Source: an uncultured Ignatzschineria sp.
Lineage (GTDB): Bacteria; Pseudomonadota; Gammaproteobacteria; Cardiobacteriales; Wohlfahrtiimonadaceae
Length of the DNA stretch: 60,397 nucleotides
Direction of reading: 5' to 3'
Assembly (NCBI GenBank): GCA_947632245.1
Contig: CANRON010000002.1
Coordinates: 1 to 60,397, forward strand
The stretch's first letter is position 1. Each line of letters starts with the position of its first letter. Of this stretch, positions 25,160 through 46,389 are shown piece by piece. The translations under genes were made by a program, and so were the position numbers. The notes beneath the pieces were generated by a model. It did not search any database. It saw only the letters and a list, made by a program, of their open reading frames with translations, and was not told where the DNA came from.

Positions 25160-26359
25160 TTATTGCGCCGGCATGTGAGCTTGAATAAATTGTACTAATT
25201 CTTCATTTTTCCAAAGAATCGCTTCTGTGTGAGACGCGCCTTCAACTAAGAGAAAGTGAATGTGCTGAGAGTCTAATATCTTGAGGTTTTCAACTAACTG
25301 CGCCGTCACCACTGCCGGCACATTTGTATCTTCTGTACCTTGAATAATTAAAACCGGCTTGTCGAGCTTTTGAGTGCCGGGTTGGTTTTTTGCAAAGAAC
25401 TCAAGCAGAACGGGATGTGATTGAAACGCCTCAATATCAATACCGGGATAATCCATCATGGATTGATCAGGATAGTTTTGCATGAATTGAATCAAATCTT
25501 GTTGGAACAGGTCGCGAATGCCGTGCAAACAGATACCATCTTCACCATTGGTACCTTCAGCACTTTGTGCAAAGCCTCTGGCATTAGGATAGAACAGGCT
25601 TAAGTAATCAAAGTCCGGTTTTTCGGCCTTAATACCCACGCCGACAAGTGCGCCATACGCAAGGATTGTCGCAAAGGAGCGCACAGCATTTCGTTCTTCA
25701 AGGGGGATATGACTTTCAGCTTCAAATTGATTGAGCGCTGTTAATTGGGAGGGCATGATATCTCGCACTATTTCTAATAGACCCGAAGCTGGCGCGCCTG
25801 CTACAGCGCCTTTAAAGTGCGTATCATAATTTGCATATTCTGCAGTGCCTAAAGATGCTTGCCCCCCTTGAGATTGGCCGACGACCATCCATGACCCTTC
25901 AAATTCCGAAGGAGATGCTGTTTTAAGTGCAACAACGCCATAGATCGCAGACAATGCCTCACTTTCTAGATGCAGATAAGGATGTATCCCGGGAGTTCCT
26001 AATCCTTCATAATCCGGTGCTAAAATCACATATCCTTTTTGCAGGAGTGCATCCGCGGCTACTTGGAAATTGGTATTGATAGGATTATTACTCGGCGCAC
26101 AGGCATCCCCAACGCCGACTGTGCCATGTGTCCAAACAACAATACGCCAGCCATCGATAGGTTTGGGGGTTTTAGGGTAAAAGACCAGCGCTGTCGCTGC
26201 CTGAAGTTTGCCGGAGAGATAAGGCATTTGATAAGTCATAACCTTAATTGTTTGTGCCGTGTCTAGCGTGCCAAGTAGATAGGGCTGGGTTGTGATATCT
26301 AGATTGGCAGATTCTGCTGCTTGAAAATGGTCAAAAACAGGGGCTTTAAATTGTGACAT
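25160..26359 (-). CDS. Alpha/beta hydrolase, secretory-lipase-like
   Basis: A 399-residue serine hydrolase. The catalytic nucleophile is S163 in VVGQSQGGQAS. The likely acid is the Asp of QGTEDTNVP and the base the His of EGASHTEAIL near the C terminus. VVWTHGTVGVGDACAPS provides the oxyanion region, and LAPDYEGLGTPGIHPY is typical of the LIP/secretory-lipase fold. No signal peptide or lipobox is seen at the chosen start, so a cytosolic location is expected unless the true start differs. The substrate is unknown. The gene is monocistronic. Confidence 0.8.
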   Translation of the reverse strand: MSQFKAPVFDHFQAAESANLDITTQPYLLGTLDTAQTIKVMTYQMPYLSGKLQAATALVFYPKTPKPIDGWRIVVWTHGTVGVGDACAPSNNPINTNFQVAADALLQKGYVILAPDYEGLGTPGIHPYLHLESEALSAIYGVVALKTASPSEFEGSWMVVGQSQGGQASLGTAEYANYDTHFKGAVAGAPASGLLEIVRDIMPSQLTALNQFEAESHIPLEERNAVRSFATILAYGALVGVGIKAEKPDFDYLSLFYPNARGFAQSAEGTNGEDGICLHGIRDLFQQDLIQFMQNYPDQSMMDYPGIDIEAFQSHPVLLEFFAKNQPGTQKLDKPVLIIQGTEDTNVPAVVTAQLVENLKILDSQHIHFLLVEGASHTEAILWKNEELVQFIQAHMPAQ

Positions 26360-26825: not shown

Positions 26826-26855
26826 AAAAAAAAGCCGAGATCTAAAAGTCTCGGC
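26826..26855 (-). terminator. Terminator of the candidate small RNA
   Basis: A 7-bp GC-rich stem GCCGAGA/TCTCGGC with an 8-nt loop followed by eight Ts on the minus strand. It could also end read-through from tag. Confidence 0.85.
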
Positions 26856-26908
26856 AAAATAACCACCAAAGGAGGATATGGAGGAGAACGTCTGATTGCT
26901 CAAACGTC
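26826..26908 (-). ncRNA. Candidate small RNA with two anti-Shine-Dalgarno motifs
   Basis: On the minus strand a consensus-like promoter is followed by a predicted transcript of about 83 nt. Its parts, in order, are an 8-bp 5' hairpin ACGTTTGA/TCAGACGT (26907-26888) capped by the GNRA loop GCAA; an open pyrimidine-rich stretch with CCTCC at 26884-26880 and again at 26875-26871; a short GGTGG that could partly pair with the second CCTCC; and a terminator GCCGAGA/TCTCGGC (26855-26834) ending in eight Ts. No ORF of useful length fits. Repeated CCUCC in an unpaired region is typical of small RNAs that pair with ribosome-binding sites. No Rfam family is recognised. Confidence 0.65.
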
Positions 26909-26914
26909 ACGCAT

Positions 26915-26943
26915 ATAGTAGTGCTTTTAAGGTGACTTGTCAA
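26915..26943 (-). promoter_or_regulatory. Sigma-70 promoter of the candidate small RNA
   Basis: The -35 box TTGACA (26943-26938) is a perfect consensus. The spacer is exactly 17 bases and the -10 box is TACTAT (26920-26915). Transcription would start near 26908. TGAC-AA-GTCA straddles the -35 box and could be an operator half-site pair. Confidence 0.65.
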
Positions 26944-44570: not shown

Positions 44571-44895
44571 CTTGATCTGTATCTCTATACGTTTAATAGA
44601 TTAAGAATTTTGTGGAATAATTGTATACCTATAATGTAATTATTTATTATCCAATAAACATCTTTGGTGCAGGGAGGCGTACTAAAGGATTTTTCGATAC
44701 TACTATAAGTAGTGACGTTAGTATGACTTTATAATAATAAAATGAGCAACTAATAAGCCGTATGCGAAATATGAACGCGCATATTTTTTAGATACATTGT
44801 ATCCCGCAGGCTGGTCACTACTTATATCAATTTAACTTAATGGCTCTTTGTTTTAGCCTACGATGTATCCCTTGCAATAAGGGAGGAGGATAATT
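44571..44895. other. Intergenic region between the M20D gene and the transporter
   Basis: Contains the inverted-repeat element above and, at its end, a very strong ribosome-binding site GGGAGGAGG for the transporter. No terminator with a T-run follows the hydrolase gene, so read-through into the transporter is possible. Confidence 0.4.
44704..44826. repeat. Pair of 13-bp inverted repeats 97 bases apart upstream of the transporter
   Basis: TATAAGTAGTGAC (44704-44716) is repeated exactly as GTCACTACTTATA (44814-44826). Both outer ends are TA. The interior is non-coding with small secondary hairpins, for example ATGCG/CGCAT and GATAC/GTATC. The layout fits a miniature inverted-repeat element inserted at TA, or a large stem in the transcript. 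I found no transposase remnant. Confidence 0.45.
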
Positions 44896-46389
44896 ATGCA
44901 AAAAAAGACTTGGTTTGATCGGGTAGAGACCTTTGGGGATAAAATACCTAATCCACTTTATCTATTTATCATTTTTTGTTTACTGATAGCGGTAATATCT
45001 GCAATATTAAGTGCAACGGGAACCAGTGTTCTCCATCCTGTCAGTAATGAAGTTGTAGCCATTAAAAATCTGATTAGCGGTGAAGGATTAGTCTATATTT
45101 TACAATCAACAGTCAGTAATTTTGTTAACTTCCAACCTTTGGGTCTAGTTCTTTGTATGATGATTGCAGTAGGCCTAGTTCAGGAAGTAGGGCTTGCCGA
45201 TTCAGCGATTAAAGCACTATTGCTAAATGCCCCAAAACAGTTTGTCACAGCATCTATCTTTATTGTGGGTATTATTGGAAATCTTGCATCTGATGCCGCT
45301 TTTGTTTTAGTTCCGCCGCTTGCAGGAATTATTTTTGCGGCGACAAAACGCAATCCTATTGTTGGAATTTGTACAGGATTTGTTGCAGTAGCGGCAGGAT
45401 TTACAGCGAATATCTTTATTGCCGGAACAGATGTTCTTTTATCGGGTGTTACCAATGAAGCCTCAAAGATTATTGATGGAACCCCCATAACGCCAGCAGC
45501 AAACTGGTATTTTATGTTGCTGTCGGTACCATTTTTGACAGTTTTAGGGACCTGGATTACAGAGCGATTGATAGAGCCACGCTTCCCGATGACTTCAGAT
45601 TATAAAGACAATCTTGCACCAGTCGGTGGTGATGATTATCAAGTGACGGCAAAAGAGCGTCGAGCATTAAAAATTACAGGATACTTTGCGCTACTCTTTA
45701 TTGTATTACTAGTTGCCACCATTTATCCAGCGTCCTCTCCCCTAAGAGGGCCTACTGGTGGTTTAGTGCCATCCCCATTTTTAAGTGGAATGATCCCAAT
45801 TATCATGGTGTTTTTCATGAGCTGTGCTATCGTTTACGGCGTAGTAGCAGGAACAATTCGAAGCTTTGATGATTTACCAAGACTACTTACAAATGCACTA
45901 AAGAACGTCGGTGGGTATATTGTGTTAGTCTTTTTTATTGCCCAATTTATTGGGTGGTTCAATTGGACGAATCTATCGATGTGGCTAGCTGTATCGGGTG
46001 CCGACTTTTTATCGGAAATTGAATTGCCCAATGTAGTGATGTTGGGTACTCTAGTATTGTTAGCGGGACTGATTAATCTAGTAGTATTTAGTGGATCAGC
46101 TCAGTGGGCCATGATGGCACCGGTATTTGTACCCTTGTTGATGTTGGTGGGTGTCGAACCTGATGCCATTCAGATGGCATATCGAATCGGCGATTCAACA
46201 ACGAATGTCATCTCGCCTACAAATCCCTACATGCCGATGGTACTTGCGCTCATTGCGCAATATAATCCTAAGGTTCGCTTTGGAACCTTCCTATCGATTA
46301 TGCTGCCATACTGTTTCTTCTTTATTATTAGTTGGACGGCATTATTCTTAGCATATTACGCTTTAGGGCTCCCTTTAGGTCCAATGTAA
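44896..46389 (+). CDS. AbgT-family transporter
   Basis: A 497-residue inner-membrane protein with about eleven hydrophobic helices, opening WFDRVETFGDKIPNPLYLFIIF, the AbgT signature. GNLASDAAFVLVPPLAG, AAGFTANIFIAGTDVLLSG and RIGDSTTNVISPTNPYMP are the conserved family blocks, including the hairpins that line the translocation path. E. coli AbgT imports p-aminobenzoyl-glutamate, and other members export sulfonamides. Here the companion amidohydrolases favour an importer of an amide-linked compound. The true substrate is unknown. Confidence 0.92.
   Translation: MQKKTWFDRVETFGDKIPNPLYLFIIFCLLIAVISAILSATGTSVLHPVSNEVVAIKNLISGEGLVYILQSTVSNFVNFQPLGLVLCMMIAVGLVQEVGLADSAIKALLLNAPKQFVTASIFIVGIIGNLASDAAFVLVPPLAGIIFAATKRNPIVGICTGFVAVAAGFTANIFIAGTDVLLSGVTNEASKIIDGTPITPAANWYFMLLSVPFLTVLGTWITERLIEPRFPMTSDYKDNLAPVGGDDYQVTAKERRALKITGYFALLFIVLLVATIYPASSPLRGPTGGLVPSPFLSGMIPIIMVFFMSCAIVYGVVAGTIRSFDDLPRLLTNALKNVGGYIVLVFFIAQFIGWFNWTNLSMWLAVSGADFLSEIELPNVVMLGTLVLLAGLINLVVFSGSAQWAMMAPVFVPLLMLVGVEPDAIQMAYRIGDSTTNVISPTNPYMPMVLALIAQYNPKVRFGTFLSIMLPYCFFFIISWTALFLAYYALGLPLGPM

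Follow-up and report, generated by a model that had tools for sequence, protein, structure and literature searches.

The window analysed here is the whole stretch of 60,397 nucleotides taken from contig CANRON010000002.1 of an uncultured Ignatzschineria sp. On its minus strand, between a Tag gene upstream and a hydrolase gene downstream (25160-26359), lies a short element which is, as judged from sequence comparison, a small RNA (sRNA) gene having its own promoter and terminator. Its features, including two segments that match the anti-Shine-Dalgarno (anti-SD) word, are collected in Table 1.

Table 1. Features of the sRNA locus, in window coordinates
Feature	Coordinates	Strand	Basis
sigma-70 promoter, TTGACA-17-TACTAT	26915..26943	-	Read from the sequence; counterpart in 28/28 distinct orthologous upstream regions
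sRNA transcript, ~83 nt (predicted)	26826..26908	-	Start placed by the -10 box and end by the T-run
5' hairpin SL1, 9 bp including closing G-U, GCAA loop: GACGUUUGA-GCAA-UCAGACGUU	26887..26908	-	Two-sided changes
anti-SD1, CUCCUCC	26880..26886	-	CUCCUC[C/U] in every Cardiobacteriales ortholog found; partly paired in SL2
SL2, CCUCCA with UGGUGG across one U-U mismatch, 10-nt loop	26863..26884	-	Predicted fold
anti-SD2, UCCUCC, in the SL2 loop	26871..26876	-	Invariant among Cardiobacteriales orthologs
Intrinsic terminator, 7-bp stem (26855-26834) and U8 tail	26826..26855	-	Compensatory changes

Promoter, transcript and predicted fold

The first-pass annotation had read a TTGACA, a 17-bp spacer and a TACTAT on the minus strand; these are indeed present at 26943..26915, and a promoter can be recognised in all 28 distinct orthologous upstream regions, each of which retains TTGAC with a -10 box following after a 16-17 bp spacer. 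The predicted start, 26908-26906, was derived from the -10 box and the predicted 3' end from the T-run. Promoter, two CCTCC motifs and T-run occur together once in the window and in none of 200 Markov-shuffled windows, and a search of the window for tRNA and tmRNA genes gave none. A TGAC-AA-GTCA symmetry over the -35 box, previously taken as the hint of a repressor site, does exist in the window but in 0 of the 27 other upstream regions compared, and no inverted repeat of useful length was found at the promoter.

GC-rich discriminators (GCGCCCC, CCGCCCC) are found in several Cardiobacteriaceae orthologs; in L018-L029 the Cardiobacteriaceae promoters, which lie some 20-30 bases 5' of the core, read TTGACG/A...TATAAT, mostly with such a discriminator (e.g. 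GCGCCCC). This feature is shared with Neisseria NmsRA, where it has been linked to stringent control (PMC5362039), and by analogy there is a hint that the Cardiobacteriaceae promoters are stringent-control-like. For the sRNA of the window stringent control is a hint only, since its discriminator, ATGCGTG, is only moderately GC-rich.

The transcript has a predicted folding energy of -26.1 kcal/mol, whereas shuffled sequences average -14.5 (z -4.1; 0/200 shuffles as good). SL1 begins exactly at the predicted start and has the GCAA loop described earlier, although its stem counts 9 bp with the closing G-U and not 8. The two CCUCC motifs (26886-26871, minus strand) lie inside the segment CUCCUCCAUAUCCUCCUUUGGUGG, between SL1 and the terminator; this segment had been regarded as an open pyrimidine stretch, which holds for CCUCC-2, located in the SL2 loop and predicted to be 82-100% unpaired, but not for CCUCC-1, which is mostly paired in a weak stem with UGGUGG downstream (C positions ~15-22% unpaired, predicted). 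The GC-rich hairpin with eight Ts proposed to end the RNA corresponds to the terminator of Table 1. A U8 tail is compatible with Hfq binding, and that of the sRNA is likely to be an Hfq site; an hfq gene is encoded in the related genome G001.

Conservation and distribution in the Cardiobacteriales

A DNA search detected the sRNA in 29 of 57 relatives, and a covariance model built from 11 sequences of the window's family only (R1) matched in 29 of 32 Cardiobacteriales genomes. Among the three order genomes lacking an R1 match, G018 was recovered with E 1.7e-6 by a second model (R2, built from the window's family plus class-wide loci), G020 gave a marginal value of 0.04 and G010, an assembly 80% complete and in 330 contigs, gave none. 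An exact scan of named genomes found the sRNA in Ignatzschineria, Wohlfahrtiimonas, Cardiobacterium, Dichelobacter and Rappaport, that is, in Cardiobacteriales. The source genome has one strong copy, and no core was found in the viral contigs searched.

The checks first proposed for this locus, retention of promoter, CCTCC core and terminator in relatives and compensatory changes in both stems, gave positive results: the three elements recur in 29 of the 32 Cardiobacteriales genomes, and strong covariation is seen in both SL1 and the terminator over 52 sequences. It is because of this recurrence, together with the compensatory changes in SL1, that we regard the element as an sRNA gene. Within the window's family 5 of the 9 SL1 pairs were changed on both sides, with 100% of cells paired (11 sequences); the covariation score for the whole structure was 0.319 versus 0.194 in shuffles, and slid pairings failed. 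In the case of SL2 the pairing is kept in 99.6% of cells (52 sequences), the changes being one-sided only, from C-G to U-G, and no two-sided compensatory change was seen in that set; thus SL2 rests on conservation and energy.

The core, TCTCCTC[C/T]ATATCCTCCTTTGGTGGTT, has a single variable base among the Cardiobacteriales sequences. It comprises 27 near-invariant bases, which beyond the CCUCC words take in AUAU and UUUGGUGGUU, and within the window's family it stays invariant while the sequence of SL1 changes. Two bases of the core spacer, AU, are missing in distant relatives.

These patterns bear on whether the locus could encode a small protein. A GTG at 26910 does open a 22-codon frame (MTFEQSDVLLHILLWWLFCRDF), read directly from the sequence; however, the start codon is missing in order-mates such as L008, the length of SL1 differs by two bases between genera and so shifts the frame, the distant relatives lack the two core bases, and sequence changes track base pairing, all of which makes a coding role extremely improbable.

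The neighbourhood is informative in a similar way. Both the hydrolase and Tag genes are on the same strand as the sRNA, so the element might be a cis-acting 5' leader or attenuator of the former or a 3'-UTR fragment of the latter. A leader would have to accommodate a strong terminator followed by ~470 bases before the hydrolase, which was detected adjoining the sRNA within the genus only, while Tag was not detected next to it in most relatives. Within Ignatzschineria the genes detected near the sRNA vary (Tag, ComM, the hydrolase, PriA), and in genus g4 PriA alone is the nearest shared neighbour, yet promoter and sRNA are kept. A cis leader or processed 3' UTR is therefore very unlikely, because the detected neighbours differ while promoter and sRNA stay.

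Two observations concern g4. Genomes of this genus give a second, weak match (L083:1501-1582; E 0.002-0.003); its core, AUGCUCCUUAUAUGAUCAU, is a different one, and the match may represent an unrelated sRNA. The sRNA sequence in a metagenome-assembled genome titled Lysobacteraceae (L035, JAAZCI010000179.1) is of the g4 type; this genome is perhaps mislabelled.

RF02278 and probable relatives across the class

At gathering cut-offs Rfam gave no match in the window and none for the sRNA in 12 order-mates. The first-pass annotation had accordingly recognised no Rfam family, a statement that has to be corrected: the best match, RF02278 'Betaproteobacteria toxic sRNA', reaches 35.5 bits, under its gathering cut-off of 50 (missed likewise by 12/12 order-mates tested), and is significant (E 4.8e-6 locally), aligning end to end over model positions 1-64 of 64 with both hairpins. 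Over the source genome its E-value is 1.5e-5 and it is the sole strong match there.

RF02278 comprises the Burkholderia 'double-hairpin RNAs' ncS03, ncS05, ncS27 and ncS62. In common with the sRNA of the window they have a CU-rich start with CUCCUCC, a CCUCC in a hairpin loop and a terminator with U-run; the sRNA described here differs in having an additional covarying 5' hairpin and a shorter SL2 with a U-U mismatch, and in coming from Cardiobacteriales as a single strong copy per genome. According to PMC5688073 and PMC4603805, members of this family are toxic in E. coli and their CU-rich regions are predicted to cover ribosome-binding sites. B. cenocepacia expresses these sRNAs, and its growth is attenuated when ncS27 is overexpressed (PMC5688073, PMC4603805).

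Moreover, in orders of the class other than Cardiobacteriales R1 matched at 54 places, distributed over 52 genomes (E<=1e-3); these places carry the core CTCCTCCATCCTCCTTTGGTGGTT or one close to it plus a terminator, and 41 of the 54 are also matched by RF02278. The cut-off of RF02278 is passed in only 2 of 274 genomes, and R1 recovers both of those members (L114, L115). The two models detect each other's loci via intermediate genomes; as a sign of common ancestry this is strong, but it is limited by the RNA being short and CU-rich. With R2, whose training loci are included in its matches, 117 of 350 class genomes matched (E<=1e-4). The E-values of both home-made models are rough. Of 299 genomes drawn from the whole phylum 14 matched, 1 of them lying outside the class.

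On this evidence we lean towards a single anti-SD family, present in about one third of the sampled class genomes, which would unite the Cardiobacteriales sRNA, RF02278 and many uncatalogued sRNAs with a CTCCTCCATCCTCCTTTGGTGGTT core. RF02278 looks like one branch of it; the 'toxic' sRNAs known from Betaproteobacteria would then belong to a family found across the class, with a core that mimics the anti-SD of 16S rRNA. If so, it would be among the most widespread base-pairing sRNA families, mostly invisible at the present Rfam cut-off, and such an under-recognised family would be a more interesting outcome than a single sRNA. The natural variants across the class could be compared to address how RNA pairing with a generic ribosome-binding motif attains specificity. 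For the Cardiobacteriales themselves (Cardiobacterium, Dichelobacter, Ignatzschineria, Wohlfahrtiimonas) the gain is an order-wide conserved sRNA, no tested copy of which reaches the Rfam cut-off.

Copy number and context vary among the relatives. L085 carries two in tandem on the minus strand (1501-1587 and 1656-1741), ~155 bases apart; one is devoid of anti-SD1 (GUUUUUCAAUCCUCC...), and for that reason the pair suggests sibling divergence. G292, G313 and G332 have 3-6 copies each, and in the class genomes L096 and L101 the sRNA relative is near a tandem glycine riboswitch.

Proposed mode of action and comparison with known anti-SD sRNAs

We consider it probable that the locus encodes a trans-acting sRNA that is transcribed on its own, occurs throughout the Cardiobacteriales, is related to RF02278 and blocks ribosome entry at several mRNAs. 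Both CCUCC motifs are identical to the anti-SD word of 16S rRNA, and competition between the RNA and ribosomes for GGAGG sites is therefore to be expected. Hfq would be bound at the U-tail, the CU-rich SL2 loop would pair with the GGAGG ribosome-binding sites of several mRNAs, anti-SD1 would join the pairing once SL2 opens, and ribosome entry at the paired mRNAs would be blocked, by analogy with NmsR, a repressor of translation that acts at ribosome-binding sites; the targets, again by analogy, may be metabolic and uptake genes. SL1 probably protects the 5' end, given that its sequence varies freely and that distant relatives have a short one or none.

In a duplex-energy screen of G001, 131 of 2077 genes scored at -20 kcal/mol or lower versus 64 of 1913 coding interiors. 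No function stood out among the 2077 genes beyond a scrambled, CCUCC-bearing control; an enrichment of proteins with multiple membrane spans among the top matches was equalled or exceeded by that control and is thus no evidence of targets. Extended complements such as ACCAAAGGA were not enriched at G001 gene starts. Genes of the TCA cycle, which along with uptake genes are translationally repressed by the NmsR siblings via their anti-SDs, were not distinctive either, citrate synthase ranking 231 of 2077 and the aconitases 779 and 1779.

The AbgT gene of the window had been put forward as a visible target. It does have GGGAGGAGG upstream (44881-44889, ATG at 44896; Pfam ABG_transport), but its duplex, at -17.9 kcal/mol, is unremarkable, as 264 of 2077 G001 genes score at least as well; its ortholog in G001 ranks 92 in duplex energy. 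The gene itself (44896-46389, plus strand) encodes a transporter of the AbgT family, and its GGGAGGAGG is unusually strong; AbgT homologues number four in the source genome, and one of them contains an in-frame TAG.

The sRNA might instead act narrowly, its 27-base core being kept for long pairing with one or two particular mRNAs or with another sRNA. Conservation well past the CCUCC words, including AUAU and UUUGGUGGUU, would fit this, as would the few G001 genes with 10-11 base complements at their start, where a second AbgT copy and an M20-type hydrolase both carry ACCAAAGGAG (a 10-base complement, taken as a lead only) and gene 1621 carries AGGAGGATATG. However, a 20-base complement with <=3 mismatches was sought in the source genome outside the sRNA gene and only poor matches appeared; the SL2 pairing also accounts for the downstream core, and the distant relatives do without the spacer AU. 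We therefore hold a narrow target range to be unlikely, if less so than a cis-acting or coding role.

The broader reading, a dedicated trans-acting anti-SD sRNA as the first-pass annotation proposed, is favoured by the order-wide conservation, the compensatory changes and close parallels tested by others. The closest in layout are Neisseria NmsRA and NmsRB (NgncR_162/163; RF02877 is NmsRb), which share three stem-loops with a terminator, an anti-SD1 between SL1 and SL2 and an anti-SD2 in the SL2 loop; they are tandem siblings, in contrast to the one gene of the source genome. The NmsRb model did not match the sRNA of the window significantly (21 bits, cut-off 52; E 0.18), and it gave one weak link in the class, at G225 (E 0.004), at a place that other models also match. 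Six target fusions are repressed by anti-SD sRNAs with such an arrangement. The repression depends on the anti-SDs and is lost on their mutation, in the case of gltA on mutation of anti-SD2 only; NmsR expression also slows the growth of E. coli (PMC5362039). In gonococcus the siblings act on amino-acid uptake as well (PMC9973317).

Other resemblances are looser. Burkholderia ncS16 (RF02866) and anti-hemB (RF02837) are likewise small CU-rich sRNAs with a terminator, but their matches are weak, far under cut-off, and their structures are not alike. Xanthomonas sX13 and other C-rich-loop sRNAs have C-rich loops in common with the sRNA of the window as an analogy only, the architecture of sX13 being unlike; through such loops, mRNAs that bear G-rich motifs close to their start codon are repressed (PMC3771888).

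Anti-SD sRNAs of such a layout are already known from Neisseria and Burkholderia (PMC5362039, PMC5688073), so that the novelty is lower than at first implied. By analogy, the sRNA of the window is functionally most like NmsR, while by sequence it is nearest to RF02278, without reaching its formal cut-off.
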